A stretch of DNA of 64,000 nucleotides from Streptomyces sp. 840.1 (GTDB lineage: Bacteria > Actinomycetota > Actinomycetes > Streptomycetales > Streptomycetaceae), in assembly GCF_003751445.1 (NCBI RefSeq), contig NZ_RJUU01000002.1, positions 930,001 through 994,000 of the forward strand, given 5' to 3'. Below the pieces are notes generated by a model. The model made no database searches, was not told where the DNA came from, and worked only from the letters and a program-made list of their open reading frames with translations. Positions 20,834 through 48,495 of this stretch are shown piece after piece (the stretch's first letter is position 1; each line of letters starts with the position of its first letter). Both the position numbers and the translations under genes were made by a program.

Positions 20834-20844
20834 CGAAACATTCG
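20834..20844. promoter_or_regulatory. Likely LacI/BxlR operator
   Basis: CGAAACATTCG is an 11-base palindrome of the form CGAA-N3-TTCG, lying between the probable promoter and the start codon of the binding-protein gene. CGAA/TTCG half-sites were reported for BxlR (from memory; the spacer there may differ). The same form recurs at 26508-26518. Confidence 0.6.
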
Positions 20845-20858
20845 ACAGAGGTGCGGTC

Positions 20859-22169: not shown

Positions 22170-22171
22170 CG

Positions 22172-23101: not shown

Positions 23102-23105
23102 CGTC

Positions 23106-23999: not shown

Positions 24000-24051
24000 C
24001 GCACCCACGCCGCCCCGCACCACCGCACTCATGAGAGGAACCCCTGCCCCC

Positions 24052-27582: not shown

Positions 27583-27604
27583 TAGTACGGGATGTATCGT
27601 ACTA
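27583..27604. promoter_or_regulatory. Operator-like palindrome in front of the Old Yellow Enzyme gene
   Basis: Perfect 7-bp arms TAGTACG (27583-27589) and CGTACTA (27598-27604) with an 8-base spacer, overlapping the probable -10 region (TATCGT 27595-27600, -35 TTGACG 27570-27575). It looks like a TetR- or ArsR/MarR-type operator. No matching regulator gene is adjacent. Confidence 0.5.
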
Positions 27605-27639
27605 GCGATCCTTCCGTACCCGGCGAAACGGAGTCCGTC

Positions 27640-28946: not shown

Positions 28947-28958
28947 GACAACGTTGTC
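28947..28958. promoter_or_regulatory. CGTTG-centred operator upstream of the GH92 gene
   Basis: GACAACGTTGTC is a perfect 12-base palindrome with the CAACGTTG core seen also at 40662-40669 and, in part, at 40828-40839. It ends 25 bases before the GH92 ATG. The CG-centred symmetry is typical of LacI-family operators. Confidence 0.6.
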
Positions 28959-28983
28959 CGAACTCCCCGGAAGGTACCGCGAC

Positions 28984-31422
28984 ATGCCCACCAGACCGTT
29001 GCCCGCGGCCCGGCGCCTCGCCGCGCGAACAGCCGCCGTACTCGTCACCGGCGCACTGGCCGCCGCAGTCCTGCCCCCCGCCGCCGGGGCCGCGACCCCG
29101 GCTGTCCGCCCCACCGCCTACGTGGACCCGCTGATCGGCAGCGCCAACGGCGGCAACACCTTTCCCGGCGCCACCCTCCCGTACGGCATGATCGCCTGGT
29201 CGCCCACGAGCACCAAGGGCGACCAGACGGGCACCGGCGCCGCGAACGGCTACCAGTACGACACCACCCGGCTGCGCGGGCTGAGCCTCACCCACGTCAA
29301 CGGCGCCGGGTGCGACCCCGGTGCGGCAGGTGACATCCCGATCATGCCGTTCGTCGGGGACGTCACCTCGTCGCCCTCGGCCGACACCAAGGACGCCGTC
29401 TACGCCGCGGACTTCTCGCACGAGGACGAGCGCGCCGTCCCCGGCCGCTACACCGTCGGCCTCGACTCCGGAGCCACCGCCGACCTCGCGGTCAGCCGGC
29501 GCGCGGGCGTGGCCGACTTCGGCTTCCCCGCCGGGAAGCCCGCCAATCTGCTCTTCCGCGTCTCGAACTCGCTGAACGGCAGCGAGGACGCCCAGGTGAA
29601 GATCGACACCGCGCACCGCAAGGTCACCGGCTCGGTGCTCACCGGCGCGTTCTGCGGGCGGCGTGCCAACGGCGGCACCAACAACCGCAAGAGCTACTAC
29701 CGGCTCTACTTCAGCGCCTCCTTCGACCGCGCCTTCTCCACCACCGGCACCTGGAAGGACGGCACGCTCGCCCCGGGCTCGACCACCGGCGGCGGGGGCG
29801 AGGGCTATGCCACCGGAGCGGACCGGGCCGGGCGCGGATCGGGCGGCTGGGTCGGCTTCGACACCGCCTCCGACAACGATGTCCACATGCGCATCGGCAT
29901 CTCCTACGTCAGCCGGGCCGGCGCGGAGGCCAACCTGCGCTCCGAGATCGCCCCGCACGCCGGGGTGGACGACGTGGCGGCCGCCGCGAGCCGGACCTGG
30001 GACCGGGAGCTGGAGTCCGTCCGCACGGGCGGCGGCACCGAGGCTCAGCGCACCACCTTCTACACCGCGCTGTACCACTCCCTGATGCAGCCCAACATCG
30101 TCAGCGACACCGACGGCCGCTACCCCGGCATGGACGGCGAGCCCCACCGGATCGGGCGTGGACAGGGGGCGCAGTACAGCAACTTCTCCGGCTGGGACCA
30201 GTACCGGGCCCAGATACAACTGCTCGCCCTGCTGAAACCGGAGGTGGCCGGGGACTTCGCCCAGTCGCTGTACAACTTCGCCCGGCAGAACGGCGGCGTG
30301 TGGGACCGCTGGGTGCACATCAACGGCGCCACCCACGTCATGACCGGTGACCCCACCGCGGCCACCCTCGCCACGTTCTACGCCATGGGGGTGCGGAACT
30401 TCGACTACGAGGGCGCCTACGAGTCGCTGGCCCGTCAGGCGACCGTCCCCGTCGAGGACGGCCTCTCGGACGCCGGCTGTCCCGGCCAGTGCACCGGCCA
30501 GCGGCCCAACCTGGCCCAGTACCTTCAGTCCCACTACGCGCCGCAGGACGTCTGCCACTGCTGGGGCGGAGCCGCCGAGACCCTGGAGGACGCGGTCGCC
30601 GACGACGCGCTCGGCCGCTGGGCCGCGCTGCTCGGCCGGGACGCGGAGGCCAAGTCGTTCAAGGAGCGCGGCGGCTGGTGGCGCAACGTGTTCAACGCGG
30701 GGGCCACCGACGGAGCCGGCACCAGCGGCTACATCCAGGCCCGCAACGTCGACGGCTCCTGGGTCACCCCGTTCGGCCCGGGGAGCGACCTGGGCTTCGC
30801 GCAGGGCACCAGCGCCACGTACACCTGGATGGTGCCGCAGGACGTCCAGGGGCTGGCGGCGGCGATGGGCGGCCGGGACGTCGCGGCGGAGCGCCTCGAC
30901 GGCTTCTTCCACAAGGCGGACGGCTCCTGGTCGGTGAAGGGCGGCGACTCCGTGCGCTACGACCCGACCAACGAGCCCGGCATCCACGCCCCTTGGCTCT
31001 ACAACGCGCTCGGTCAGCCGTACAAGACCCAGGCGACCGTCCGCGAGATCCTGAACACGGTCTACGGGACGGGCCCGCGCGGTCTGCCCGGCAACGACGA
31101 CCTGGGGACCATGTCCGCCTGGTACGTCTTCTCCGCGCTGGGGATGTACCCGCAGTCCCCGGGCGGCGCCGCGATGCTGCTGGGCGCCCCGTTGTTCCCG
31201 AAGGCGGTCATCGACCGGCCGCACGGCAGGGACATCACCATCACCGCACCGGCCGCCGACGCCGGGCATCCGTACATCGACGCGGTGACGGTCGACGGAC
31301 GCGACCACGACCGGTCCTGGACGGACCCGAGCCTGCTCACCCGGGGCGGCAAGCTGGCCTTCAGCCTCTCCGGCGAGCCCAACACCACCTGGGCTACAGC
31401 CGCTTCGGGGCTGCCGCGCTAG
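28984..31422 (+). CDS. Secreted GH92 alpha-mannosidase
   Basis: 812-residue exported calcium-dependent exo-alpha-mannosidase. The signal peptide reaches about residue 38 (PAAGAATPA). The N-terminal beta-sandwich begins YVDPLIGSANGGNTFPGATLPYGM, and the catalytic (alpha/alpha)6 domain has FSGWDQYRAQIQLLALL and WDRWVHINGATHVMTGDPTA. The highly conserved end NEPGIHAPWLYNALGQPYKTQ plus GLPGNDDLGTMSAWYVFSALG carries the catalytic acid and base residues. ATG 28984 follows GGAAGG. GH92 enzymes release mannose from alpha-mannans, such as fungal or yeast wall mannan. It opens the furanose/mannan gene region, with an operator of the same type as the later ABC operon. Confidence 0.94.
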   Translation: MPTRPLPAARRLAARTAAVLVTGALAAAVLPPAAGAATPAVRPTAYVDPLIGSANGGNTFPGATLPYGMIAWSPTSTKGDQTGTGAANGYQYDTTRLRGLSLTHVNGAGCDPGAAGDIPIMPFVGDVTSSPSADTKDAVYAADFSHEDERAVPGRYTVGLDSGATADLAVSRRAGVADFGFPAGKPANLLFRVSNSLNGSEDAQVKIDTAHRKVTGSVLTGAFCGRRANGGTNNRKSYYRLYFSASFDRAFSTTGTWKDGTLAPGSTTGGGGEGYATGADRAGRGSGGWVGFDTASDNDVHMRIGISYVSRAGAEANLRSEIAPHAGVDDVAAAASRTWDRELESVRTGGGTEAQRTTFYTALYHSLMQPNIVSDTDGRYPGMDGEPHRIGRGQGAQYSNFSGWDQYRAQIQLLALLKPEVAGDFAQSLYNFARQNGGVWDRWVHINGATHVMTGDPTAATLATFYAMGVRNFDYEGAYESLARQATVPVEDGLSDAGCPGQCTGQRPNLAQYLQSHYAPQDVCHCWGGAAETLEDAVADDALGRWAALLGRDAEAKSFKERGGWWRNVFNAGATDGAGTSGYIQARNVDGSWVTPFGPGSDLGFAQGTSATYTWMVPQDVQGLAAAMGGRDVAAERLDGFFHKADGSWSVKGGDSVRYDPTNEPGIHAPWLYNALGQPYKTQATVREILNTVYGTGPRGLPGNDDLGTMSAWYVFSALGMYPQSPGGAAMLLGAPLFPKAVIDRPHGRDITITAPAADAGHPYIDAVTVDGRDHDRSWTDPSLLTRGGKLAFSLSGEPNTTWATAASGLPR

Positions 31423-31436
31423 GAGTACGACGGCGC

Positions 31437-31477
31437 CGTGCCGGATCGCCGCGCCCCGTGCGCGGTGATCCGGCACG
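31437..31477 (+). terminator. Terminator of the GH92 gene
   Basis: 17-bp stem with one G-U pair (31437-31453 with 31461-31477), starting 14 bases after the stop codon. It separates GH92 from the following GH2 gene. Confidence 0.8.
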
Positions 31478-31571
31478 GGGCGCGCCGAACCGACTTTCTA
31501 TCGTTGAAAATTCTCCGTGCATGACTGTTGTTTTACGTTTGATGCTGTGGCTGAATGTTCGATTGTGTGCT

Positions 31572-31593
31572 GTGCCTCACAGGTTCGAGGCAC
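31572..31593. promoter_or_regulatory. Inverted repeat in the leader of the GH2 gene
   Basis: Perfect 7-bp arms GTGCCTC (31572-31578) and GAGGCAC (31587-31593) with an 8-base spacer, about 27 bases before the TTG start. It could be an operator or a leader hairpin. The sequence before it (31490-31570) is unusually A+T rich and likely holds the promoter. Confidence 0.35.
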
Positions 31594-31619
31594 TTCAGCT
31601 CTCTCGACAGGACGACGCC

Positions 31620-34600
31620 TTGAGACGACAAATGCCCCGCCCCCGTGCTCTGTTCAGGACGGCGGTCTGTGCCGCCGCGCTGCTGATCCCCGTCGGGGCC
31701 ACCCTGGTCCCGGCTGCCGCAGCCACCCCCGCCGCAGCCGCCGGCGCCGCCTCCGCGACCACGTTCAAGGCCGGGAATCCGGCCACCGAGGTCCACGGGC
31801 TGAAGGGCGAGTACTTCAGCATGTCCGCGCCCGGCGCGCGGGACTTCGACAAGCTCGGCGGAGTCGCCCTCGACCCGCAGATCAACTTCCCCGGCCTCAC
31901 CGGCACGTTCGAGTCCACCACCGGGCAGACGGAGAACACCACCGCCCGCTGGACCGGCGGCATCACGGCCCCCGAGGACGGTGACTACACCTTCGCCGCG
32001 AGCGGTGACAACGGCTTCCGTCTCTACATCGACGGCAAGGTGGTCATCGACCACTGGGAGCCGGACTGGGACAACGAGCAGACCAGCGCGCCGGTCGCGC
32101 TGAAGGCCGGTGAGACGCACGAGTTCAAGCTGGAGATGTTCCAGGACACCGGCGGCGCCAACATGTTCCTGCGCTGGTCCAGCGCGAAGCTCGCCAAGCA
32201 GGTCGTGCCCGAGTCGGCCTTCACTCCGCCGGCCGACTTCGAGGTCTACCCCGTCGGGCTGAGCGTCGCGAGCGACGGGCAGAAGCTCCGGGCCACGTTC
32301 GACGACAAGGTCGCCTCCTTCTCCCGGGTGAAGGACCACCTCAAGATCGAGGCGGACACCTCGCCGATCCCGGTGAAGTCCGTCGCCCGCGCGTCCGGCA
32401 GCTCCAAGGCGCTCACCGTCACCCTGGCCGCACCCGTCCAGAAGGGCCAGCAGGTCCGCATCGCGTACGACGGGAAGGCCGGCCTCACGGTCGGCGGCGA
32501 GACGGTCCCCGAGATCAGCCGCACGGCCGAGAACCTGTCGGCGCACCGCCTCACCACGACCTGGGGCGACAAGCTCGACCGCGAGCACCCGCTGCCCGAG
32601 TACCCCAGGCCGCAGCAGGTCCGCGACCAGTGGAAGAACCTCAACGGGCCCTGGGAGTTCGCCGGAGCCGAGGCGGGCGAGCAGCCCGTGTTCGGGAAGA
32701 AGCTCGGTGAGCGCATCACCGTGCCGTTCCCCGTCGAGTCGCAGCTCTCCGGCCTGGAGCGCCACGAAGACCACATGTTCTACCGCAAGCTCGTCACGGT
32801 GCCGAAGAACTGGTCGGTGAAGAGCGGCAAGGACAAGAGCGGCAAGGGCAGCGCCGGAAACCGGCTGAAGCTCAACTTCGGTGCCGTCGACTACCAGGCC
32901 ACCGTCTGGGTCAACGGCAAGCAGGTCGCCGAGCACACCGGCGGCTACACCTCCTTCACCGCCGACATCACCGACGCGGTCAAGGGCAGCGGACCGCAGG
33001 AGATCGTCGTCGCGGTCACCGACACCACCGGTGACGACCAGCCCAAGGGCAAGCAGTCCCGCAGCCCCGGCGGCATCGTCTACACGCCGTCCTCCGGCAT
33101 CTGGCAGACCGTCTGGATGGAGCCGGTGGCTCCCGCGTCGGTGGACTCCCTGACGACCACGCCCGACATCGGCAAGGGCGCCCTGGCCGTCAAGGTCAAC
33201 TCCGCCGCGGCCTCGGCCGGTGCGCGGGTCACCGCCGTCGCCCGGGACAAGAAGGGCAAGGTCGTCGGCACGGTCTCCGGACCGGCCAACCGCGAGCTGA
33301 GCCTGCCCGTGAAGAAGCAGCACCTGTGGACCCCGGACGACCCGTACCTGTACGACCTCGACGTCAGCCTCACCGACGGACGCTCCAAGGACACCGTCGA
33401 CAGCTACTTCGGAATGCGCTCCCTCGGCATCGAGAAGGTCGGCGGCTACCAGAAGCTGGTGCTCAACGGGAAGCCGTTCTACTCGCTCGCCATGCTGGAC
33501 CAGGGCTTCTGGCCCGACGGGCTCTACACCCAGCCGAGCGACGCCGCGCTGACCTTCGACCTGAAGGCACAGAAGGAACTCGGCTTCAACGCGGTGCGCA
33601 AGCACATCAAGGTGGAGTCGGCCCGCTGGTACTACCACGCGGACCAGCTCGGACTGCTGGTCTGGCAGGACTTCGTCTCCTCCGACATCACCGGTGAGAA
33701 GGGGCAGCAGGCCTTCCTCTCGCAGGGCAAGCAGATGATGGAGCAGCTCCACAACTCGCCCTCGATCGGCGGCTGGATCGTCTTCAACGAGGGCTGGGGC
33801 GAGTGGGACCGCACCGAGACCGGCAAGATCACCGAGGCGGTCAAGGCCGCCGACCCCTCCCGCGTCGTCAACGCGCACAGCGGTGTCAACTGCTGCTCGT
33901 CCAAGGGTGACTCGGGCAAGGGCGACATCATCGACCACCACGACTACCTCAACAACGACGCCCCGTTCCCGGACAACCGGGCGGCCATGGACGGCGAGCA
34001 CGGCGGCTTCACCCTCCGTACCGCCGGCCACATGTGGCCCGGTGCCCCCGCGGCGATCTACAGCGGGGTCGCGGACAAGGACGCCCTGACGGCCAAGTAC
34101 GTCGACAACACGCGCACCTACTACCTCGCGGCCGCCGGAGCCGAGCTGTCGGGCTCGGTGTACACGCAGGTCAGCGACCTGGAGAACGAGCTCAACGGTC
34201 TGTACACCTATGACCGGCGCGAGATCAAGGTCGACCCCGAGCAGGTCCGGAAGATCAACGAGCAGGTCATCGCGGCGGGCGCCGCCGCCGGCCACCGCGA
34301 CGAGGTGAAGGGCGGCGCCGCCTGGAACCTCGACGAGGGCAAGGGCACCAAGGCCGCCGACCAGGGCCCCAACCGCCTGCCGCTCACCCTGTCCTCCGGC
34401 ACCACCTGGGCGCCCGGCGTCCAGGGTTCGGCGCTGAAGTTCAACGGTGAGGGCCAGTACGCCGAGACCACCACCCCGGCGGTCGACACCACCGAGGACT
34501 ACACGGTGTCGGCCTGGGCCCAGCTCGACGCGCTGCCCGGCAACTACGCGACGATCGTCAGCCAGGACGGACGCCGCACCGAGAATCCGTTCTACCTCCA

Positions 34601-34922
34601 GTACGGGCAGGGCGCGTTCGCCTTCAGCACCCCGGGCGGCAAGCGCGCGCGGGCGGAGATGACGCCCGAGACCGGCAGGTGGTACCACCTGGTGGGCGTG
34701 CGTGCGGGCGACGAGCTGAAGCTGTACGTCGACGGCAGCCTCGCGGCCACGGCCCAGGCCGGTACCGCCGACGCCAGCACCGGCCCGCTCTCGGTCGGCC
34801 GTGCGCAGTACGCGGGCGAGAAGGGCGACTTCTGGAACGGTTCCATCGACCAGGTCAGGGTGTACGACAAGGCCCTGACCGCGGACGAGGTGAGCGCGCT
34901 GCACGGCACCGAGAAGCCGTAG
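31620..34922 (+). CDS. Secreted GH2 hydrolase with PA14 and LamG-like domains (beta-galactofuranosidase-like?)
   Basis: 1100-residue exported glycoside hydrolase. After the signal peptide comes a PA14 carbohydrate-binding domain (about 55-195, GLKGEYFSMSAPG to FLRWSSAKL), an Ig-like linker, then the GH2 sandwich (LNGPWEFAG onwards), Ig-like and TIM-barrel domains. The acid/base Glu is in FNEGWGEWD and the nucleophile Glu in DGEHGGFTL. A C-terminal LamG/concanavalin-like domain follows (about 900-1100, GQYAETTTPAVDTTEDYTVSAW). TTG 31620 is preferred because AGGA lies 7 bases upstream; ATG 31632 is too far from it. It is related to the GH2 at 35610. A Streptomyces GH2 beta-galactofuranosidase is known and the nearby importer is Galf-type, so that activity is my best guess. 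Confidence 0.85.
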   Translation: MRRQMPRPRALFRTAVCAAALLIPVGATLVPAAAATPAAAAGAASATTFKAGNPATEVHGLKGEYFSMSAPGARDFDKLGGVALDPQINFPGLTGTFESTTGQTENTTARWTGGITAPEDGDYTFAASGDNGFRLYIDGKVVIDHWEPDWDNEQTSAPVALKAGETHEFKLEMFQDTGGANMFLRWSSAKLAKQVVPESAFTPPADFEVYPVGLSVASDGQKLRATFDDKVASFSRVKDHLKIEADTSPIPVKSVARASGSSKALTVTLAAPVQKGQQVRIAYDGKAGLTVGGETVPEISRTAENLSAHRLTTTWGDKLDREHPLPEYPRPQQVRDQWKNLNGPWEFAGAEAGEQPVFGKKLGERITVPFPVESQLSGLERHEDHMFYRKLVTVPKNWSVKSGKDKSGKGSAGNRLKLNFGAVDYQATVWVNGKQVAEHTGGYTSFTADITDAVKGSGPQEIVVAVTDTTGDDQPKGKQSRSPGGIVYTPSSGIWQTVWMEPVAPASVDSLTTTPDIGKGALAVKVNSAAASAGARVTAVARDKKGKVVGTVSGPANRELSLPVKKQHLWTPDDPYLYDLDVSLTDGRSKDTVDSYFGMRSLGIEKVGGYQKLVLNGKPFYSLAMLDQGFWPDGLYTQPSDAALTFDLKAQKELGFNAVRKHIKVESARWYYHADQLGLLVWQDFVSSDITGEKGQQAFLSQGKQMMEQLHNSPSIGGWIVFNEGWGEWDRTETGKITEAVKAADPSRVVNAHSGVNCCSSKGDSGKGDIIDHHDYLNNDAPFPDNRAAMDGEHGGFTLRTAGHMWPGAPAAIYSGVADKDALTAKYVDNTRTYYLAAAGAELSGSVYTQVSDLENELNGLYTYDRREIKVDPEQVRKINEQVIAAGAAAGHRDEVKGGAAWNLDEGKGTKAADQGPNRLPLTLSSGTTWAPGVQGSALKFNGEGQYAETTTPAVDTTEDYTVSAWAQLDALPGNYATIVSQDGRRTENPFYLQYGQGAFAFSTPGGKRARAEMTPETGRWYHLVGVRAGDELKLYVDGSLAATAQAGTADASTGPLSVGRAQYAGEKGDFWNGSIDQVRVYDKALTADEVSALHGTEKP

Positions 34923-34940
34923 CCGTCCGGCGCGGTAACC

Positions 34941-34978
34941 CGCTGCCCGCCCCCGCGTCCGTGCTGGGGCGGGCAGCG
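34941..34978 (+). terminator. Terminator of the PA14-GH2 gene
   Basis: Perfect 13-bp stem (34941-34953 with 34966-34978) and 12-base loop, 18 bases after the stop codon. Confidence 0.8.
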
Positions 34979-35027
34979 GTAGGCCCCGGCAGCCGGGCCG
35001 GGCACGGGGCCGTGTGAGGATCGGGGG

Positions 35028-35540
35028 ATGGATGATCCGGAGATCCGCCGACGCCGCGACGACGACCTGAAGGCGTGCGTCGAGGCACTGGCCACGGTGT
35101 ACGAGGCGGACCGCTACCCGGCCCGGTGGCCGGACGACCCGGCGGGCTGGCTGACCCCCGAGGGGCTGGTCGACGCCTGGGCGGCCTGGGACGGCACGCA
35201 CGTGCTGGGGCATGTCGCGCTCACCCGGACCGGCCCCGCCATGGCGGCGGAGGCCGGGCTCGCGCCGGACCGACTGGCCTCGGTGTCACGGCTGTTCGCC
35301 ACGGCGTCGGCGCGGCGGCGCGGAGTGGCGAGCGCGCTGCTCTCGACCGCGTCGGCCGCCGCCGCGGCCGCCGGCCGGCGGCCGGTCCTGGAGGTGGAGG
35401 ACGGCGGCGGCGCGGCGGTCCGGCTCTACGAGAACGCCGGCTGGCGGCTCGTCTCGAGCCGCGTGGGCGACTGGACGACGGCCGACGGCCGGACGGCGCT
35501 GCTGCGCACGTACATCGCACCGGCGGCTGCGGCGCGGTAG
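35028..35540 (+). CDS. GNAT-family N-acetyltransferase
   Basis: 170-residue acetyltransferase. It starts with a short acidic and basic strand (IRRRRDDDLKACVEALATVY), shows the central strand VLGHVALTRTG, the acetyl-CoA pyrophosphate loop in VSRLFATASARRRGVASALL, and the C-terminal AVRLYENAGWRLVSSRVGDW of motif B. The substrate is unknown; the Glu/Asp-lined N-terminal region suggests a small amine. ATG 35028 has GAGGATCGGGGG upstream. It stands between two hairpins, so it is its own transcription unit. Confidence 0.85.
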   Translation: MDDPEIRRRRDDDLKACVEALATVYEADRYPARWPDDPAGWLTPEGLVDAWAAWDGTHVLGHVALTRTGPAMAAEAGLAPDRLASVSRLFATASARRRGVASALLSTASAAAAAAGRRPVLEVEDGGGAAVRLYENAGWRLVSSRVGDWTTADGRTALLRTYIAPAAAAR

Positions 35541-35544
35541 TACA

Positions 35545-35590
35545 CCTGCGGCCCGGACGCGACGCGTTCGCGTCGTGTCCGGGCCGCAGG
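35545..35590. terminator. Very strong bidirectional terminator
   Basis: 22-bp stem with one G-U pair and a 2-base loop (35545-35566 with 35569-35590), between the convergent GNAT and AbfB-GH2 genes. Confidence 0.85.
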
Positions 35591-35609
35591 CCTGCGTGGT
35601 GCGGGGCGG

Positions 35610-37955
<2,346 letters not shown>

Positions 37956-37996
37956 CGGTTCGTCTCCTTCGCCGGGGGCTGCCCCGGTACGGGAAA

Positions 37997-38022
37997 CTCC
38001 CCGCGCCGGGTGGCGCGGGGAG
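37997..38022 (-). terminator. Hairpin between GH127 and the downstream GH2 gene
   Basis: Perfect 11-bp stem CTCCCCGCGCC (37997-38007) with its complement (38012-38022) and a 4-base loop. It lies in the 100-base gap, so it either ends the GH127 transcript or attenuates into the next gene. Confidence 0.6.
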
Positions 38023-38055
38023 CGGTGCGGGGGGAACTGGGGAACGGTCAGGGGG

Positions 38056-40503: not shown

Positions 40504-40661
40504 GGAGGGGGCTCCTGCTCTCTGCCGGCCGGGGTTCCGGCTCGGGGAAGGCACATGACACGGGTGGGGCCGTCATGACGCAGCGAACCGGAGGGAGCCG
40601 GAGCGCGTGCATGGCGAGATGAGCCGTCGCGGCGGAAAGGGGCTGCGCGGCGCGGTGCTTG

Positions 40662-40669
40662 CAACGTTG
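40662..40669. promoter_or_regulatory. CGTTG-centred operator, GH127 side
   Basis: CAACGTTG is a perfect 8-base palindrome inside TTGCAACGTTGGAAA, 159 bases upstream of the GH127 start codon. It shares its core with the operator of the GH92 gene and the one on the importer side, so one LacI repressor (gene at 46262) could control all three. Confidence 0.55.
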
Positions 40670-40803
40670 GAAATTTGGCTACCGGCGGTATGACAGCACG
40701 GCGTCGGGCGGCTGTCCAGGGTTGCGGCAGTAACCGGGCGCCGGTGGCCGCCATTTCGCCCCGGGCGGCTCCGACACATTTTGGAAACGCATCGACAACG
40801 CTC

Positions 40804-40839
40804 TTGCCGCCCGTGCCGCGCCGCCTATATAACGTTGTA
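40804..40839 (+). promoter_or_regulatory. Promoter of the furanose importer operon with overlapping operator
   Basis: TTGCCG (40804-40809) and TATATA or TATAAC (from 40826/40828) are 16-18 bases apart. The palindrome TATAACGTTGTA (40828-40839) overlaps the -10 box and the likely start site, the classical place for a LacI-type repressor. Confidence 0.6.
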
Positions 40840-41031
40840 AACCGAGCCGCCGAGAGGCCGCGCAGGCTCTCACGACCGCAGTTCGTGCAGCTGGGGCCCG
40901 CCCCCGCGAAGCACTGGCGGGGGTCGTGAGGAATGCAGTGACATCAGCCGCCGTGCGGCCGATGCATCGTCCAGCCATGCCCGACCGCACACCCGCCGGT
41001 GTGCCGTCAACCCGCCAAGGAGCCCCCGCGC

Positions 41032-42117
41032 ATGATGATCCAGCGCCGAACCCGTACCCTCGCCGTGGCCTGCCTCCTCGCCGCCACAGCCACGCTGGCC
41101 GCCTCCGGCTGCTCCAAGTCGGAGGGCTCGGACAACGCGAGCTCTGACAGCAGCCAGGGCGCCCAGGCGGCCAAGTCCCCCGAGTCCTCCTCCGGTTCCG
41201 GCTGCTCGCTGCAGACCTACGGGTCGCCGAAGCTGGACCTGAAGAACGCGGTCGTCGGCTTCTCGCAGTCGGAGAAGGAGGCCAACCCGTTCCGGATCGC
41301 CGAGACCCAGTCCATCAAGGACGAGGCGAAGAAGGTCGGCGTCAAGAAGCTCCTCACCACCAACGCCCAGTCGCAGCTGTCCAAGCAGATCAGCGACATC
41401 CAGGACATGCTGTCGCAGGGCGCCCAGTTCCTCATCGTCGCCCCGCTGAACTCCGACGGCCTGGAGCCGGCGCTCAAGGCAGCCGCGGCCAAGAAGGTCC
41501 CGGTCCTCACCGTCGACCGCAAGCTCAACTCCACCGCGTGCAAGGACTACGTGGCCTTCCTCGGCTCCGACTTCGTCGAGCAGGGAAAGCGCGCGGCGGA
41601 CGCGATGATCAAGACGACCGGTGGCAAGGGCAAGGTCGCCATCCTCCTCGGCGCCTCGGGCAACAACGTCACCACCGACCGCACCAAGGGCTTCGTCGAC
41701 CAGCTCAAGGCCAAGGCTCCGGGGCTGAAGATCGTCGCCCAGCAGACCGGTGAGTTCGCCCGCGACAAGGGCCAGCAGGTCATGGAGCAGCTCATCCAGT
41801 CCAAGCCCGACATCACCGCCGTCTACGCGGAGAACGACGAGATGGGCCTCGGCGCCGTCACCGCGCTGAAGGCCGCCGGCAAGAAGCCCGGCAAGGACGT
41901 CAAGATCGTCTCCGTCGACGGCACCCGCAACGCCGTCCAGGCCCTGGTCAACGGCGAGTACAACGCCGTCATCGAGTCGAACCCGCGCTTCGGCCCGCTG
42001 GCCTTCGCGACCGCCCAGAAGTTCTACGGCGGCGAGGAGATCCCGGAGAACGTCATCATCTCCGACCGCGCCTACGACGAGTCCAACGCCAAGGCCTCGC
42101 TCGGCGGCGCGTTCTGA
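41032..42117 (+). CDS. Sugar ABC transporter binding lipoprotein, galactofuranose (YtfQ) type
   Basis: 361-residue type-I periplasmic-binding protein (ribose/galactose class). The lipobox LAASGC puts the lipidated Cys at residue 27. The mature protein opens KLDLKNAVVGFSQSEKEANPFRIAETQSI, the pattern of the Escherichia coli galactofuranose binder YtfQ (GFSQ-E-N-FR-A-T-S). Further ligand-site segments are LIVAPLNSDGLEPAL, VDRKLN, AVYAENDEMGLGAV and VSVDGTRNAVQAL. AAGGAG 9 bases before ATG 41032. First gene of the operon. The expected ligands are galactofuranose, arabinofuranose or a short oligomer; the fine specificity is inferred only. Confidence 0.92.
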   Translation: MMIQRRTRTLAVACLLAATATLAASGCSKSEGSDNASSDSSQGAQAAKSPESSSGSGCSLQTYGSPKLDLKNAVVGFSQSEKEANPFRIAETQSIKDEAKKVGVKKLLTTNAQSQLSKQISDIQDMLSQGAQFLIVAPLNSDGLEPALKAAAAKKVPVLTVDRKLNSTACKDYVAFLGSDFVEQGKRAADAMIKTTGGKGKVAILLGASGNNVTTDRTKGFVDQLKAKAPGLKIVAQQTGEFARDKGQQVMEQLIQSKPDITAVYAENDEMGLGAVTALKAAGKKPGKDVKIVSVDGTRNAVQALVNGEYNAVIESNPRFGPLAFATAQKFYGGEEIPENVIISDRAYDESNAKASLGGAF

Positions 42118-42228
42118 CCGCGACCGGCACCACCTGCCCGTAGCACCCGCGGGGGCCCGCCGGGCCGGGACCGGCCGCGCGATGAACCGCACGCGTCCCG
42201 CCCGGCCCGTACCGGCCCCCGGCGCACC

Positions 42229-42260
42229 GCCGCCGTGACGCTCCCACCCGTCACGGCGGC
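42229..42260 (+). terminator. Intercistronic hairpin after the binding-protein gene
   Basis: Perfect 12-bp stem (42229-42240 with 42249-42260), 8-base loop, inside the 187-base gap before the ATPase gene. Such hairpins usually attenuate or stabilise, so that the binding protein is made in excess. Confidence 0.65.
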
Positions 42261-42304
42261 CACCGGGCCCACACCCTTGGAAGAGCGGAAGGCCGAGACC
42301 AGCC

Positions 42305-44134
42305 ATGGCACCACCCGAAGCAGTACCGCAGCCGCCGGAGCCGGCCGCCGACGTGAAGGAGCCGACCGAGCCCGACGCCCCCGTGAAGGAGGCCACCGAG
42401 GCGAAGGACGCCACCGAGGCGACGGGCGCCACCGAGGCGACGGGCGCCCCCGGCACGAGCGCCGTCCCCGGGGCGAAAGACGCCTCCGGCCCGGACGCCG
42501 TCACCGGCCCGGACGCCGTCACCGGCCCGGACGCCGTCACCGGCCCGGACGCCGTCACCGGCCCGGACGACGGCTCCGCCCCGGCCGTCCTCGAAGCCCG
42601 CGCGGTGAGCAAGCGGTTCCCCGGCGTCGTCGCCCTCGACGGTGTCTCGTTCTCCCTGCGCGCCGGGGAGACCCACGCACTGGTGGGGGAGAACGGAGCC
42701 GGCAAGTCCACCCTGATCAAGGTGCTGACCGGGGTGTACCAGCCCGACGAGGGCGAGCTGCGGCTGACCGGCCGACAGATCGCCTTCGCCCGCCCGTTCG
42801 AGGCGCAGCAGGCCGGCATCTCCACGATCTACCAGGAGGTGAACCTCGTCCCGCTGATGAGCGTGGCGCGCAACATCTTCCTCGGGCGTGAACCGAAGAA
42901 CCGTTTCGGCCTGATCGACTTCGGCCGCATGCACCGCGAGACCACCGAACTCCTCGACGGCTTCGGCGTCCGTGTCGACCCCAAGCGGCCCCTGCACACC
43001 CTGGGCATCGGTACCCAGCAGATGGTCGCGCTGGCCCGCGCCGTCTCGGTCAACGCGCAGGTCGTCATCATGGACGAGCCCACCTCCTCGCTGGAGCCGC
43101 GTGAGGTCGAGACGCTCTTCCGGGTCATCGAGGACCTGCGTGAGCGCGGCATCGCGGTGCTCTACGTCAGCCACCGCATGGACGAGCTCTACCGGATCTG
43201 CGACCGCGTCACCGTCCTGCGCGACGGCCGGCACATCCACACCGGCGACCTCGCCGACCTCGACCGCATGCAGCTCGTCTCGATGATGCTCGGCCGCGAC
43301 ATGGCCGAGGTCCGCCGCTCCGGTCTCACCAGCTTCGGCTCCGAGGGCCACGACGCCTCGCGCACCCCGGTGCTCACCGCGTCCGGCCTCTCCCGCAACC
43401 ACCAGCTCCACGACATATCCCTGTCCCTGTACGCCGGTGAGGTGCTCGGCCTCGGCGGACTCCTCGGCTCCGGCCGCAGCGAGACCGCGAAGGCCCTGGC
43501 CGGTGCGCTGAACCTGGACTCCGGCGAGATCGGGATCGGCGGACGTGCGCTGCGCAGGCTCACCTCCGCCGGCGCCATCCGCGCCGGCATCAGCCTGCTC
43601 CCCGAGGACCGCAAGGCCGAAGGCATCGTCCCCGGCCTCTCGGTGCGCGAGAACATCGTGCTGGCCGCGATGCCACGCCTCTCCCGCGCGGGTGTCGTCT
43701 CCCGCGCCAAGCAGGACCGCATCGTCGAGATCTTCATGAAGCGGCTGCGGATCAAGGCGGCGAGCCCCGAACAGAAGGTCGGCGAGCTCTCCGGCGGCAA
43801 CCAGCAGAAAGTCCTGCTGGCCCGCTGGCTCTGCCTGGAACCCAAGGTGCTGCTGCTCGACGAGCCCACCCGCGGCATCGACGTCGGCGCCAAGGCCGAG
43901 GTCCAGAGCCTCATCGACGACCTCGCCCGCGAGGGCCTCGCCGTGCTGCTCATCTCCTCCGACATCGAGGAACTCATCGAGGGCGCCGACCGCATCGTCG
44001 TCCTGCGCGGCGGCGCGGTCGCGGGTGAACTGGCGGGCGACGAGGTGGCCGAGAGCCATCTGCTCGAAGTGCTCGCCGACCACTCACCGGCGCCCGCAGG
44101 GCAGGCCCCGGCCGCTCAGGAGGACCCCCGATGA
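42305..44134 (+). CDS. Sugar ABC transporter ATP-binding protein (two nucleotide-binding domains) with repeat-rich N-terminal extension
   Basis: 609-residue double ATPase of the RbsA/YtfR class. Domain 1 has Walker A GENGAGKST (about 128-136), a Q-loop TIYQEVNLVPLMS, and the DEPTSSLEPRE Walker B. Domain 2 has the degenerate GGLLGSGRSETAKAL, the LSGGNQQKVLLARWL signature and DEPTRGIDVGAK. About 93 residues before the fold are unusual: Pro/Glu/Ala/Thr-rich, with two copies of ATEATG and four of GPDAVT. Family members normally start with only a few residues before the first beta-strand. ATG 42305 is the natural start; a later start such as GTG 42607 would remove the extension. The stop overlaps the permease ATG (ATGA). 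Confidence 0.92.
   Translation: MAPPEAVPQPPEPAADVKEPTEPDAPVKEATEAKDATEATGATEATGAPGTSAVPGAKDASGPDAVTGPDAVTGPDAVTGPDAVTGPDDGSAPAVLEARAVSKRFPGVVALDGVSFSLRAGETHALVGENGAGKSTLIKVLTGVYQPDEGELRLTGRQIAFARPFEAQQAGISTIYQEVNLVPLMSVARNIFLGREPKNRFGLIDFGRMHRETTELLDGFGVRVDPKRPLHTLGIGTQQMVALARAVSVNAQVVIMDEPTSSLEPREVETLFRVIEDLRERGIAVLYVSHRMDELYRICDRVTVLRDGRHIHTGDLADLDRMQLVSMMLGRDMAEVRRSGLTSFGSEGHDASRTPVLTASGLSRNHQLHDISLSLYAGEVLGLGGLLGSGRSETAKALAGALNLDSGEIGIGGRALRRLTSAGAIRAGISLLPEDRKAEGIVPGLSVRENIVLAAMPRLSRAGVVSRAKQDRIVEIFMKRLRIKAASPEQKVGELSGGNQQKVLLARWLCLEPKVLLLDEPTRGIDVGAKAEVQSLIDDLAREGLAVLLISSDIEELIEGADRIVVLRGGAVAGELAGDEVAESHLLEVLADHSPAPAGQAPAAQEDPR
42410..42445 (+). repeat. Two tandem 18-bp coding repeats (ATEATG)
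   Basis: Identical copies at 42410-42427 and 42428-42445 in the N-terminal extension of the ATPase; a related third copy precedes them in degenerate form. Confidence 0.85.
42488..42568 (+). repeat. Tandem 18-bp minisatellite (GPDAVT), four copies and a half
   Basis: Unit GGCCCGGACGCCGTCACC at 42488, 42506, 42524 and 42542, all identical, plus 9 bases at 42560-42568. In-frame copy changes alter only the length of the ATPase tail, so it may vary between strains. Confidence 0.95.
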
Positions 44135-45105
44135 CCCAGGCCACGCTCTCCACCCCCGCCGCCCGCCCGCTGGCGCGGCTGCGCGACCCCGCCTGGTACC
44201 AGGAGTACGGGGTGTACCTCGCCGTCGCGGTGGTGCTCCTGTTCAACGCCCTGTTCACCGAGCACTTCATGACCGCGGACAACCTGCGCACCCAGCTCGT
44301 CCAGGTCGCGCCCATCGTCATCGTCGCCCTGGGCATGGCCCTGGTGATCGGCACCGAGGGCGTCGACCTCTCCGTCGGCTCGACCATGGCGGTGGCCGCG
44401 GCCCTGCTGCCGCTCTACCTCGGCTACGGGCTGGTGCCCGCACTGGTCATGGCGCTGCTGGCCGGCGCGCTCGTCGGAGCGGTCAACGGCACGCTGGTCT
44501 CCCTCGTCGGGCTCCAGCCGATCGTCGCCACCCTCGCGCTGTTCGTCGGCGGCCGAGGCCTGGCCCTCGTCATGGCGGACGGCCAGCTCAAGCAGATCGT
44601 CAACCCCGACCTGCTCTCGCTCGGCACCGGGTCCTTCCTCGGCATCCCCCTGGTCGTACTCATCGCCGCGGTCCTCGCGGTCGCCGTCGCCTTCCTCGTC
44701 CAGCGCACCACCTTCGGCCGCCAGGTCGTCGCCATCGGCGGCAACCGGGCCGCGGCCTCGCTCGCCGGACTGCCCGTGCGCCGCGTACTGATCGGTGTGT
44801 ACGTGCTCTGCGGGGTGCTGGCCGCACTGGCCGGCATCCTCGCCACCGCCAGGCTCACCGCCAGCGACCCCTCCTCGCTCGGCACCCTCATGGAACTCTC
44901 CGCCATCACGGCGGTCGTGGTCGGCGGCACCCCGCTCAACGGCGGTTCCATCCGGGTGCTCGGCACCGTCGCGGGCGCCCTGCTGATGCAGCTCCTGCGC
45001 GCCACCCTCGTCAAGCACGACCTGCCCGACTCCACCGCACAGATCGCCCAGGCGGCCATCATCATCGCCGCCGTCTACGTCGCCCGGGAGCGTCGGTCCC
45101 GATGA
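44131..45105 (+). CDS. Sugar ABC transporter permease (YtfT-like)
   Basis: 324-residue membrane protein of the ribose/galactofuranose permease family (BPD_transp_2). The characteristic GTEGVDLSVGSTMAVAAALLP and VGGTPLNGGSIRVLGTVAGALLM segments are present, with 8-10 predicted helices. ATG 44131 overlaps the ATPase stop by four bases. It forms the channel heterodimer with the next permease, as YtfT does with YjfF. Confidence 0.94.
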   Translation: MTQATLSTPAARPLARLRDPAWYQEYGVYLAVAVVLLFNALFTEHFMTADNLRTQLVQVAPIVIVALGMALVIGTEGVDLSVGSTMAVAAALLPLYLGYGLVPALVMALLAGALVGAVNGTLVSLVGLQPIVATLALFVGGRGLALVMADGQLKQIVNPDLLSLGTGSFLGIPLVVLIAAVLAVAVAFLVQRTTFGRQVVAIGGNRAAASLAGLPVRRVLIGVYVLCGVLAALAGILATARLTASDPSSLGTLMELSAITAVVVGGTPLNGGSIRVLGTVAGALLMQLLRATLVKHDLPDSTAQIAQAAIIIAAVYVARERRSR

Positions 45106-46163
45106 ACGAAACCTCACCCGCACCGGTGGCCCAGGCCCCGGCACCGCGCAAGACCCCCGCAGCCGCGGGCGGCGGCGCGCCCCGCCCCGTGACCGGCGCA
45201 CCGCCCCCGCTCGGGCAACGGCTCGCCGAACTCCTCCAGCGTCAGGGCGTGCTCGCGGTCCTGCTCACGGTCGTGATCGTCGCGTCGTTCATCTACCCGA
45301 CGTTCGCCACCCTGGACAACGCCCGCGGCGTGACCGTCCAGGCCTCTTTCCTGGCCGTGGTCGCCCTCGGCATGACCATGGTCATCATCACCGGCGGCAT
45401 CGACCTGTCCGTCGGCTCCGTCTTCGCGCTCGGCGGCGTCCTCGCCGCCTGGGCCTCCCAGTGGGGCTTCCTGCCCGCACTGCTCGTACCACTGGTGGCG
45501 TGCGGCGCGATCGGACTGCTCAACGGCTTCCTGGTCGCCCGCGCGGGGATGGCACCGTTCATCGTCACGCTGGCCACCCTGCTGGGAGCCCGCGGCATCC
45601 TGCTCGCCTTCACCGACGAGGGCGCCACCACCTACCTGGTCCCCAAGGGATCGGCCTTCGCCGAGCTCGGGCAGGGGAGCGTGTGGGGCTTCGGCTACCC
45701 GATCCTCATCGCCCTCGTCCTGTTCGGCGTCGGCGGCCTGCTGCTGCAGCGCACCTCGTTCGGGCAGACCCTCTTCGCCGTCGGCGGCAGCAGCGACGCG
45801 GCCACCCTGATGGGCCTGCCCGTGGCCCGCACCAAAATGCTGGTCTACACGCTCAGCGGACTGCTGGCCGGACTCGCCGGCGCGCTCAACGCCGCCCGGC
45901 TGTCGTCCGGGGTCACCATCGTCGGCGTGGGCATGGAGCTCGACGCGATCTCCGCCGTCGTCATCGGCGGCACCCTCCTGATCGGCGGCGCCGGCTCGAT
46001 CAGCGGAACGCTCTGGGGCGTACTGCTGCTCGCCGTCATCCAGAACCTGATCAACCAGATCGGCTCGCTGAACTCCTCGTACCAGTCGGTGGTCAGCGGA
46101 GGGTTCCTTATCGTTGTCGTCGTGGCGCAGCGCTATCTGGCGCGCAGCCGCAGAACCACTTGA
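45102..46163 (+). CDS. Sugar ABC transporter permease (YjfF-like)
   Basis: 353-residue second permease with the family signature ITGGIDLSVGSVFALGGVLAAW, GLPVARTKMLVYTLSGLLAGLAG and VIGGTLLIGGAGSISGTLWG. A Pro/Ala-rich N-terminal tail of about 40 residues precedes the first helix. ATG 45102 overlaps the previous stop (ATGA). Together with the three genes before it, this reproduces the gene order of the E. coli galactofuranose importer ytfQ-ytfR-ytfT-yjfF. Confidence 0.94.
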   Translation: MNETSPAPVAQAPAPRKTPAAAGGGAPRPVTGAPPPLGQRLAELLQRQGVLAVLLTVVIVASFIYPTFATLDNARGVTVQASFLAVVALGMTMVIITGGIDLSVGSVFALGGVLAAWASQWGFLPALLVPLVACGAIGLLNGFLVARAGMAPFIVTLATLLGARGILLAFTDEGATTYLVPKGSAFAELGQGSVWGFGYPILIALVLFGVGGLLLQRTSFGQTLFAVGGSSDAATLMGLPVARTKMLVYTLSGLLAGLAGALNAARLSSGVTIVGVGMELDAISAVVIGGTLLIGGAGSISGTLWGVLLLAVIQNLINQIGSLNSSYQSVVSGGFLIVVVVAQRYLARSRRTT

Positions 46164-46261
46164 ACCTGTGCCGGGGCCCCGGGCCCCGGCACAGGCCGAG
46201 CCGAACCGGCGCAGCCGGGCCACCGCGCGTCAACGCGCGTCAAGTCGATTCAGGGAGTGCC

Positions 46262-47296
46262 GTGGGCGTCAGCCTCAAGGACGTTGCGCAACGGGCGGGC
46301 GTATCCATCAAGACCGTGTCGAACGTGGTGAACAACTATCAGCACGTCACACCGAAGATGCGCGCCAAGGTGCAGCAGGCCATCGACGAGCTCGGCTACC
46401 GGCCGAACCTCACCGCACGGCATCTGCGCAAGGGCCGTACGGGCATCATCGCCCTCGCCGTCCCCGAGTTCGGCAACCCGTACTTCGGGGAGCTGGCCGG
46501 GGAGGTCGTCGACGCGGCCGCCCGGCACGACTACACCGTGCTGGTCGACCACACGGGCGGGCTCCGGGAGAAGGAACTCCTGGTCAGCCAGGGATTCCGG
46601 TCCCATGTGATCGACGGCCTCATCCTCAGCCCCATCCACCTGGAGACCGAGGACCTGATGGCACGGGCCGAGACGGCCCCGATGGTGCTGCTCGGCGAGC
46701 GCGAGTACGAGGCGCCCTACGACCACATCGCCATCGACAACGTGGCGGCCTCCCGGGAGGCCGTACGCCACCTCATCGACCAGGGCAACCGGCGGATCGC
46801 CTTCCTCGGCTCGCGCACCGGCCGCGAACGGCAGCCGGCCCACCTGCGGCTGCGCGGCTGGCGGGAGGAGCTCGCCGCCGAGGGCATCGTCCCCGACGAG
46901 TCACTGGTCGTCGTCACCGACGGCTACGGCCGCGAGGACGGGGCCACCGCGATGGCCGCCCTCCTGGACCGGGGCGAGCAGCCCGACGCCGTGTTCGCCT
47001 ACAACGACCTCATCGCCATCGGGGCGATGCGCACCCTCTCCGAACGCGGTCTGCGCATCCCCGAGGACGTCGCCGTGGTCGGCTTCGACGACATCGAGGA
47101 GAGCCTCTACGGGGCCACCACCCTCACCACGGTCGCCCCGGACAAGGAGGCCATCGCCCGGCTCGCCGTCGACAGCCTCGTGGAGCGACTCTCCGGCGAC
47201 GCGTCCCCCGCCCCCCGGCGCCCCCGGCCCGGCTACCGGCTCATCGTCCGGGAGTCCACCGTCCCCCGGCCCCCCGCACGGCCGGCCGGAACCTAG
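46262..47296 (+). CDS. LacI-family repressor of the furanose operon
   Basis: 344-residue LacI/GalR repressor. The helix-turn-helix is VSLKDVAQRAGVSIKTVSNVV at residues 3-23 and the hinge helix PKMRAKVQQAIDELGYRPN. The effector domain has IALAVPEFGNPYFGELAGEVV, LILSPIHLETEDL, VFAYNDLIAIGAM and VAVVGFDDIEESLYG. GTG 46262 with GGGAG close upstream. As the fifth gene of the operon it is probably autoregulated through the palindrome at 40828-40839. Its stop codon TAG is formed by the first bases of a MITE-like element, though the C-terminus appears to have normal length. Confidence 0.92.
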   Translation: MGVSLKDVAQRAGVSIKTVSNVVNNYQHVTPKMRAKVQQAIDELGYRPNLTARHLRKGRTGIIALAVPEFGNPYFGELAGEVVDAAARHDYTVLVDHTGGLREKELLVSQGFRSHVIDGLILSPIHLETEDLMARAETAPMVLLGEREYEAPYDHIAIDNVAASREAVRHLIDQGNRRIAFLGSRTGRERQPAHLRLRGWREELAAEGIVPDESLVVVTDGYGREDGATAMAALLDRGEQPDAVFAYNDLIAIGAMRTLSERGLRIPEDVAVVGFDDIEESLYGATTLTTVAPDKEAIARLAVDSLVERLSGDASPAPRRPRPGYRLIVRESTVPRPPARPAGT

Positions 47297-47381
47297 GGCG
47301 TGTTTCGAAAGCAGCGTCGTCCGCCGGCAGGGCGGGCGTGCCGGACGCCGCCACGCAGACGGGACTTTCGAAACACGCCCT
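47295..47381. mobile_element. MITE-like element with 17-bp perfect terminal inverted repeats
   Basis: 87 bases bounded by AGGGCGTGTTTCGAAAG (47295-47311) and its exact complement (47365-47381). The GGGCGTGTTTCGAAAG-type end resembles termini seen around insertion elements in Streptomyces genomes (from memory). The inside is too short for a gene. No target-site duplication is clear. It can also fold into a hairpin and act as a terminator. Confidence 0.65.
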
Positions 47382-47421
47382 GGTACCCCTCCCGGCCGTC
47401 CGCTCCTCGCAAGGACCTCTG

Positions 47422-48495
47422 ATGCCTCGCCCCACCGTGAACCGCAAACCGTTCGGCGCCCATGGGAACACGGACGTCGATGTCTGGACGCTCGACTCCG
47501 GCAACGGAGTCCGCGCCGAGATCCTCACCTACGGCGGCATCCTGCATCGTCTGACCGTGCCGGACACCGGGGGAGCCCCCGCGTCCGTCGTCCGGTCACC
47601 GGCGGACCTGGCCGGCTACACGGGCGGCAGCCCGTTCTTCGGCGCCCTCATCGGCCGCTTCGCCAACCGCATCGCGCACGGCCGCTTCACCCTCGACGGG
47701 GCGGTGTACCAGGTCCCCGCCACCGACCGGGGACACGCTCTGCACGGGGGGCCCGGGGGCTTCCACACCCGCGTCTGGCAGGCCGACGGGGAAGCCACCG
47801 ACGTGGCCGCGAGGCTCCGGCTCACCCTGCACAGCCCCGACGGCGACATGGGATTCCCCGGTGCGCTGGACGTCACCGTCACCTACGTCCTCGACACGGC
47901 GGGCACCCTCACCCTCGGCTACACCGCGACGACGGACCGCCCCACCGTCGTCAACCTCACCAATCACGCCTACTTCGACCTCGCCGCCAAGGGAGACATC
48001 CTCGGCCACACCCTCCAGGTGGACGCCGACAGCTACCTCCCCGTCGACGAGGACGGCATCCCCGAAGGGCCGGCCGCGCCGGTGCACGCCACCCCGTTCG
48101 ACCTCACCACCCCGCGCACGGTCGGCGACCGGATCGCGCTCCCCGACGAACAGCTGCGCAGGGCGGGCGGCTTCGACCACTGCTGGATCATCCGGGACCG
48201 CAACACCGGTCTCAACCGCGCCGCCCGCCTCACCGCCCCCGGGGGCGGGCGGATCATGGAGGTGTGGACCACCGAACCCGGCATCCAGGTCTATACCGCC
48301 AACCAGCTCGACGGCACCCTCGCCGCCCTCGGCGGCGGCCGCCACGAACGTCACAGCGCCGTCTGCCTGGAGACCCAACACCTTCCCGACTCACCCAACC
48401 GGCCGGACCACCCGGGCACCGTGCTGCGCCCGGACGAGGTCTTCCGCAGCCGGACCGAGCTCAGGTTCCCGCACCTCGCGCCCGGCGCGGCCTGA
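47422..48495 (+). CDS. galM: Aldose 1-epimerase (mutarotase)
   Basis: Converts alpha- and beta-anomers of free aldoses such as galactose, arabinose or xylose, preparing imported sugars for kinases. 357 residues with the family motifs: FFGALIGRFANRIAHGRF, HALHGGPGGFHTRVW, the catalytic His in NLTNHAYFDLA, the AGGFDHCWI segment, and the catalytic Glu in CLETQHLPDSPNRPD. ATG 47422 has AAGGAC 5 bases upstream. It follows the LacI gene by about 125 bases, most of which is the MITE-like element, so it was probably part of the same operon. It may now rely on readthrough or its own promoter. Confidence 0.95.
   Translation: MPRPTVNRKPFGAHGNTDVDVWTLDSGNGVRAEILTYGGILHRLTVPDTGGAPASVVRSPADLAGYTGGSPFFGALIGRFANRIAHGRFTLDGAVYQVPATDRGHALHGGPGGFHTRVWQADGEATDVAARLRLTLHSPDGDMGFPGALDVTVTYVLDTAGTLTLGYTATTDRPTVVNLTNHAYFDLAAKGDILGHTLQVDADSYLPVDEDGIPEGPAAPVHATPFDLTTPRTVGDRIALPDEQLRRAGGFDHCWIIRDRNTGLNRAARLTAPGGGRIMEVWTTEPGIQVYTANQLDGTLAALGGGRHERHSAVCLETQHLPDSPNRPDHPGTVLRPDEVFRSRTELRFPHLAPGAA

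Follow-up and report, generated by a model that had tools for sequence, protein, structure and literature searches.

In Streptomyces sp. 840.1, genes for secreted glycoside hydrolases lie next to genes for a complete sugar importer, raising the question of which glycan this locus serves. The locus is part of a 64,000-nucleotide stretch of the 8.84 Mb genome that we call the window (bases 930001-994000 of contig C2). A first-pass annotation, made from the letters of the window alone, had proposed that the enzymes release galactofuranose (Galf) and mannose and that the importer takes up the freed sugar. This proposal is supported by computed evidence on the GH2 enzymes, on the linkage of the importer, and on the link to mannan. 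We consider it probable that the locus serves the use of β-D-Galf on α-mannan glycans, among which fungal galactomannan and galactomannoproteins are the likeliest. Pfam domain scans of the window proteins, with the importer and GalM also compared with NCBIfam models, recovered each gene named in the annotated interval (28947..48495) at correct coordinates, and the interval starts at the first base of a predicted operator site, GACAACGTTGTC. The genes for GH92 and PA14-GH2-LamG on the forward strand are followed by a GNAT-family open reading frame (ORF) and, on the reverse strand, by the genes for GH2-AbfB and GH127-ricin. Divergent from these is a block encoding, in order, a substrate-binding protein (SBP), an ATPase, two permeases, a LacI-family regulator, and GalM. 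Inspection by eye shows a signal peptide on each of the four hydrolases and a lipobox in the SBP. The G+C content of the window is 0.68-0.74, measured in 4-kb steps, and for most locus genes the reading frames are consistent with third-position G+C.

The two GH2 enzymes are central to this reading. The gene at 31632..34922 (+ strand) encodes a secreted protein with PA14, GH2, and Laminin_G_3 domains (PA14-GH2), and the gene at 35610..37955 (- strand) encodes a secreted protein with GH2 and AbfB domains (GH2-AbfB; AbfB at 164 bits in Pfam). The GNAT-family ORF between them (35028-35540) lies outside the functional set. Residues 117-709 of GH2-AbfB match β-D-galactofuranosidase 2 (PDB 9j6n/9j6m) at 1087 bits, with the next chain, 7sf2, at 502 bits; PA14-GH2 matches 9j6n at 481 bits and the next other chain at 383 bits. 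Both enzymes score higher against this characterised GH2_18 member than against other GH2 chains. The accessible text of a paper on GH2 subfamilies places 9J6M in GH2_18, and its reference list gives Streptomyces sp. JHA19 as the source (PMC12243196). In the accessible part of a study on this enzyme, JHA19 ORF1110, eight alanine mutants retain <16% activity, including 1.8% for D423A and 2.6% for E464A (PMC4560423). We mapped the ORF1110 numbering through the alignment of GH2-AbfB with the PDB chain (offset +7 ahead of a gap of 2 residues and +5 beyond it) and found that all eight residues (D201, D330, E405, D423, E464, D500, E530, and E594) are kept in both window enzymes. According to the same text, the JHA19 enzyme is active on Galf, inactive on arabinofuranose (Araf), and frees galactose from Aspergillus fumigatus galactomannan (PMC4560423).

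Actinobacterial galactofuranosidases assayed on Aspergillus galactomannan are of two types, with AbfB or with PA14, and on this substrate the PA14 domain is important and AbfB dispensable (PMC5391426). The window encodes one GH2 of each published type. GH2-AbfB shares with ORF1110 its architecture, a long and strong match, and all eight critical positions, but ORF1110 was published as a single enzyme, and no importer, regulator, or locus is mentioned in the accessible text. PA14-GH2 can be likened, by architecture only, to JHA26 ORF0643 from Streptomyces, a homologue of ORF1110 with an N-terminal PA14 domain and GH2 (PMC5391426); the C-terminal LamG is an extra of the window protein. Both window enzymes are thus predicted to be β-D-galactofuranosidases. 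The first-pass annotation had noted that a GH2 β-galactofuranosidase is known from Streptomyces, and the JHA19 enzyme is such a protein.

The same annotation had kept Araf open as an alternative. If so, the locus would serve L-Araf from plant arabinan, arabinogalactan-protein, or hydroxyproline-arabinosides, with AbfB binding Araf, GH127 freeing β-L-Araf, and the importer taking up L-Araf. AbfB is indeed an arabinofuranosidase domain, yet the characterised GH2-AbfB homologue is without Araf activity (PMC4560423). We judge the Araf alternative less likely than the use of Galf, and unlikely overall, and return to it below where the importer and GH127 are discussed.

Linkage of the importer to such GH2 enzymes was examined in 121 Streptomyces genomes using 89 of 114 GH2 rows (25 rows of ≤284 bits were dropped) and 39 of 40 SBP rows (one row from G119, where the gene is split in two, was dropped as its second fragment). 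The SBP is present in 38 of the 121 genomes, and 34 of the 39 SBP matches share a contig with a GH2 of this type at a distance of ≤20 kb, in several gene orders. Both SBP and GH2 occur in 37 genomes, SBP only in 1, GH2 only in 24, and neither in 59 (Fisher p ~1e-13, with related genomes counted as independent). The five misses are G075, G028, G119 (GH2 on another contig), G117 (without GH2), and a 40% paralogue of G116. These 34 matches support a tie between the importer and predicted galactofuranosidases in Streptomyces.

The best 80 of 209 GH2-AbfB loci, 78 of them from Streptomyces and 2 from Kitasatospora, include 46 with an SBP match. We call the arrangement in the window layout A. In layout B (L072, L080), LacI, SBP, ATPase, permease, and GH2AbfB genes run in one direction with a PA14-GH2 gene facing them. 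In layout C (L102, L104, L112), another PA14-type GH2 (PA14 itself was found in L102), accompanied in some cases by GH127, is divergent from the importer, and GH92 is nearby in L102 and L112. The genes for GH2, GH127, and LacI are retained in L111 and the importer is absent. GH127 relatives were found in 29 of the 121 genomes, one at just 34% identity, and some lie away from GH2 genes.

Predicted operators of two types occur in the locus. One type consists of TTTCCAACGTTGGAAA or TATAACGTTGTAAA, and sites resembling TTTCCAACGTTGGAAA stand ahead of the operons for GH2, GH127, and the importer. The window contains TTCCAACGTTGCAA (40659..40672) before the GH127-GH2AbfB operon, which is the sole TNNNAACGTTGNAA match in the genome, ATATAACGTTGTAAAC (40826..40841) before the importer operon, and a variant, TTTCTATCGTTGAAAA (31495..31510, + strand), 137 bp before PA14-GH2. 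For operator counts in related loci, those with <200 bases upstream and PA14-GH2 matches of <60% identity were dropped. Sites of the TTTCCAACGTTGGAAA/TATAACGTTGTAAA type precede GH127 in 31 of 35 loci and the SBP gene in 40 of 64, with 5 more SBP genes having AACGTT with a GAC half-site (AACGTT in 45/64). They are also present at 21/21 PA14-GH2 promoters of a group with 60-76% identity, at some stand-alone GH2AbfB genes, and before the LacI gene where it comes first (layouts B and C; AACGTT in 21/68 overall). The operon-internal GalM gene has AACGTT in 1/38. Layout A PA14-GH2 promoters have the TTTCTATCGTTGAAAA variant at -137 to -140 in 35/35 cases, with a best match of 12-14 of 16, these being 35 related sequences and not independent events; as a control, 63 of 2000 random 300-base segments from the same loci, real sites included, score ≥12. 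An AACGTT near 17.2 kb in L034-like loci was ruled out as the PA14-GH2 promoter operator, with AACGTT found in 0/36 promoters of the group. The local LacI regulator (46262..47296, + strand) is predicted to bind these sites. Among the matches listed in a search of the open-licence literature for the operator string, none concerned Streptomyces, judged by title.

These counts bear on whether the neighbourhood could have arisen by chance, with a ribose-type importer, a mannosidase, and arabinofuranosidase-like enzymes close together and no common pathway. GH92 and GH127 are each missing from many loci, and the SBP sequence falls between GafA and RbsB, as chance would allow. Against this, the linkage persists across several gene orders for 34 of 39 SBP matches, and related operators stand before GH127, the SBP gene, and, as the variant, PA14-GH2 in the proportions given above. 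Chance proximity is, in our view, very improbable.

The other operator type relates the use of Galf to mannan. The site GACAACGTTGTC at 28947..28958 lies 25 bp before the start of the GH92 gene (28984..31422, + strand; start chosen by eye from the ATG, Shine-Dalgarno sequence, and signal peptide), which encodes a predicted secreted exo-α-mannosidase (catalytic domain 476 bits, N-domain 209 bits, both over the Pfam cut-off). The genome contains 12 perfect RACAACGTTGTY sites, this one included, and 50 sites at ≤1 mismatch versus 9 for a reversed control pattern. A perfect site is located upstream of 4/4 GH92 genes of the genome, and the sole GH76 gene has a site ~40 bp inside its coding start. 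Other perfect sites precede genes for a glucosaminidase/mannosidase-type GH2, a LacI/ROK pair with GH27 adjoining (L006), an MGH1-like hydrolase, and a secreted F5/8-domain enzyme. The LacI of L006 is likely to be the regulator that binds GACAACGTTGTC. Nine of the 38 one-mismatch sites were inspected by eye and no glycosidase was seen nearby, and two genes there that were scanned with Pfam encode an ABC ATPase and DnaA. For this reason the regulon claim rests on the perfect sites.

In related loci, a GACAACGTTGTC site is ahead of 10/10 GH92 genes examined. Nine loci from further species (L067, L071, L075-L079, L084, and L086) also have it ahead of a stand-alone GH2AbfB gene. Galf release is therefore tied to α-mannan degradation, a link that the first-pass annotation had drawn from gene content, and this sharing of GACAACGTTGTC is the strongest sign that Galf and α-mannan are attacked together. 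Elsewhere in the genome (L011; G000:C3:544700-552700), the second PA14-type GH2 gene lies beside a GH92 gene; the GH2 gene has a looser site of the galactofuranose type and the GH92 gene one of the mannosidase type. No importer gene was recognised there within the 8 kb examined.

A Galf-containing target need not be fungal. The locus could instead be directed at bacterial Galf in mycobacterial or nocardial arabinogalactan, in lipoarabinomannan, or in a Galf-containing O-antigen. Lipoarabinomannan has an α-mannan core. In the accessible text of a review, mycobacterial galactan is β-1,5/1,6-Galf (PMC7278926). However, no D-arabinanase fit was found among the Pfam-scanned proteins of the locus and operator sites, a set that did not include a genome search for GH172, GH183, and GH116, and the published galactofuranosidases were shown to act on A. 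fumigatus galactomannan (PMC5391426). We regard a bacterial target as quite improbable.

Can the importer take up the freed sugar? It is of the CUT2 type and is encoded on the + strand by genes for the SBP, a lipoprotein (41032..42117), a double ATPase (42305..44134), and two permeases (44131..45105 and 45102..46163). Pfam identified a periplasmic binding protein, a double ABC ATPase, and two BPD_transp_2 domains in the gene order of ytfQ-ytfR-ytfT-yjfF. The best NCBIfam models are YtfQ for the SBP, YtfR for the ATPase, and YjfF for the second permease; for the first permease they are RbsC (186.9 bits), AraH (181.2), and YtfT (177.5). In an unrooted tree with GafA and ribose-binding proteins the SBP forms its own clade, between GafA/YtfQ and RbsB. 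The equivalents of Arg38 and Asp111 (E. coli numbering, with the Arg38 position deduced from the E. coli sequence) are kept in 62/62 SBP sequences, and the accessible text on GafA ties these two residues and a stacking Trp to furanose binding (PMC10191376). The window importer resembles the GafABCD/YtfQ-YtfR-YtfT-YjfF systems of E. coli, Mycobacterium smegmatis (MSMEG_1712), and Shewanella ANA-3 in gene order, in having two permeases, in the top-scoring models of three subunits out of four, and in the Arg/Asp pair. The Shewanella ANA-3 system also pairs enzymes that free a furanose with an importer for furanoses, but it handles L-Araf from plant polymers with another gene set, as described in the accessible text (PMC10191376), whereas the window locus is predicted to act on Galf on mannan. 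The same text reports that the Shewanella and M. smegmatis GafA proteins bind L-Araf (PMC10191376), in keeping with the Araf alternative. Against that alternative, the operator is common with α-mannosidase genes, layout A contains a GalM gene, and no araA-, araB-, or araD-type gene was recognised in the layouts examined, where many genes are unannotated. We also found SBP relatives in 10 of 246 genomes drawn from the phylum. Five of the genomes, with 48-59% identity, belong to other genera, and one of these (L137) has the importer relative followed by genes for DeoR, galT, and galK on the same strand, again pointing away from L-Araf.

Several observations weigh against the use of Galf on α-mannan as the function of the locus. 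No Ytf model reaches its curated cut-off (bits versus cut-off: YtfQ 203/510, YtfR 573/850, YtfT 177.5/535, YjfF 210.6/363). The earlier description of a galactofuranose-type importer thus holds for gene order and for the best models of three of four subunits and fails at the curated cut-offs, because of which we claim no GafABCD membership. With three GafA proteins the SBP shares 36-40% identity and with two ribose-binding proteins 33-39%, and the GafA set in the accessible text was gathered at ≥45% identity (PMC10191376). The GafA stacking Trp is Phe in 62/62 SBP sequences (NPFR for SGWR). A Foldseek search with the SBP model (mean predicted local distance difference test score, pLDDT, of 80.9) placed GafA entries at ranks 1-4 and a ribose-binding protein at rank 5; the model does not separate the two. 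Three of the four readable relatives outside the genus (L136, L138, L139) lie beside a GMC/gluconate-dehydrogenase-type gene and not beside Leloir genes; the fifth relative, L135, is too short to read. Of 100 related loci, just 12 include GH92, which is therefore an optional accessory. AACGTT is missing from the scanned stretch of 75 of 92 GH2AbfB promoters, the GH2AbfB gene following GH127 in layout A. The GACAACGTTGTC site of the GH76 gene lies within signal-peptide codons. Finally, 3 of the 12 perfect sites are without a clear link to a glycan enzyme: L002 has no glycan gene, the L009 site is probably inside a coding region, and the L012 site falls within a ThuA-type gene or at its start.

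The importer context outside the genus is thus mixed, and homology alone leaves the importer ligand unsettled. The importer likely works like GafABCD. Within Streptomyces our best guess for its ligand is galactose because the linked enzymes release galactose, and together with the Arg/Asp pair this suggests that the sugar is imported in the furanose form. In other actinobacterial families, an aldehyde dehydrogenase gene is also present in L136 and L138, an enolase-superfamily gene in L136, and a lactate-racemase-type gene in L138; L136, L138, and L139 may encode an oxidative sugar pathway.

The substrate of GH127 is less evident. This predicted secreted 1,2-cis furanosidase (38056..40503, - strand; twin-Arg-like signal by eye) has catalytic and middle domains over the Pfam cut-off and a C-terminal ricin-type β-trefoil (157 bits in Pfam) that the first-pass annotation had missed. 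Its ETC and CCPxN motifs align with those of the GH127 enzyme 4qjy. We take ETC and CC to be the Glu/Cys site, with residue roles as in HypBA1. By its PDB name the nearest solved GH127 enzyme is a β-L-arabinofuranosidase, as the Araf alternative would have it. The window protein is remote from 4qjy and chain 5mqo (just 52-72 bits, spanning ~230 residues in the catalytic/middle region), has an added ricin-type lectin, and in several layouts occurs in linkage with galactofuranosidase genes. This linkage, together with the operator, suggests that GH127 acts on the same glycans as the galactofuranosidases, from which it would probably remove a 1,2-cis furanoside, either β-L-Araf or α-D-Galf. A structure prediction for GH127 was discarded as a poor model (mean pLDDT 62.5).

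α-D-Galf shares its ring configuration with β-L-Araf, and varianose, a polysaccharide of Penicillium varians, holds α-D-Galf units. The accessible text of one paper reports α-D-Galf units in glycans and names P. varians (PMC3520571). It is possible that GH127 is an α-galactofuranosidase; the terms alpha-galactofuranosidase and alpha-D-galactofuranosidase had no occurrence among the literature matches listed. A bolder, joint reading is that the importer represents a new CUT2 subfamily for D-galactose in furanose form and that GH127-ricin is the first α-D-galactofuranosidase. We find this rather doubtful. If true, the locus would hold a complete two-anomer Galf scavenging pathway inside a GACAACGTTGTC regulon by which the bacterium feeds on fungal walls.

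Returning to the use of Galf on α-mannan, the parts of the locus could work together as follows. Terminal Galf would be removed by the two secreted GH2 enzymes, which carry AbfB in one case and PA14 and LamG in the other. GH92, helped by further GH92 and GH76 enzymes from other parts of the genome, would then dismantle the exposed α-mannan. The CUT2 importer would take up the freed galactose, probably still in the furanose form, before it rearranges to the pyranose. Inside the cell the GalM-type aldose 1-epimerase (47422..48495, + strand; Pfam, NCBIfam) would equilibrate the sugar, and central galactose metabolism would use the product. The local LacI may control the galactofuranosidase, GH127, and importer operons, with a second regulator acting at GACAACGTTGTC to control GH92 within a genome-wide mannan regulon.

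The enzyme families and the importer type are each already known; together they would form a locus for the use of mannan that bears galactofuranose. The first-pass annotation knew of no such actinobacterial locus described as a unit, and we found none announced among the open-licence papers listed in our searches. Galf is absent from mammals and present in many filamentous fungi (PMC4560423, accessible text), and the contribution of galactofuranosidases to galactofuranose metabolism is called unclear in the accessible part of a review (PMC7278926). Galactofuranosidases have so far been described enzyme by enzyme, and this locus joins release, likely uptake, and control into a testable pathway. 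It provides a putative transporter of a short-lived form of a sugar, a pair of regulators for which operators are predicted, and a GH127 without an obvious substrate. It also suggests that many Streptomyces may feed on fungal wall glycans via a dedicated system.

Among the remaining operator-linked proteins is one of 1055 residues with a Tat-like (twin-arginine) secretion signal and F5/8 domains (L010:4063-7230). Its N-terminal 600 residues gave neither a Pfam family nor a PDB chain; for the protein as a whole, the PDB matches were confined to small carbohydrate-binding-type chains and N-acetylglucosaminidase stretches. Around the locus in the window, an old-yellow-enzyme-type gene (27592-28737) borders it, and a gene for a GH13 α-amylase with two CBM25 domains and one Fn3 domain (48574-51594) adjoins galM. 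Further upstream (20781-26460), genes for a separate sugar importer (SBP_bac_1, BPD_transp_1) lie beside a GH3 glycosidase gene. The gap between lacI and galM (47296-47380) contains a perfect 16-base inverted repeat, GGGCGTGTTTCGAAAG, with one further single copy elsewhere in the genome; the repeat may be terminator-like or a mobile-element remnant.

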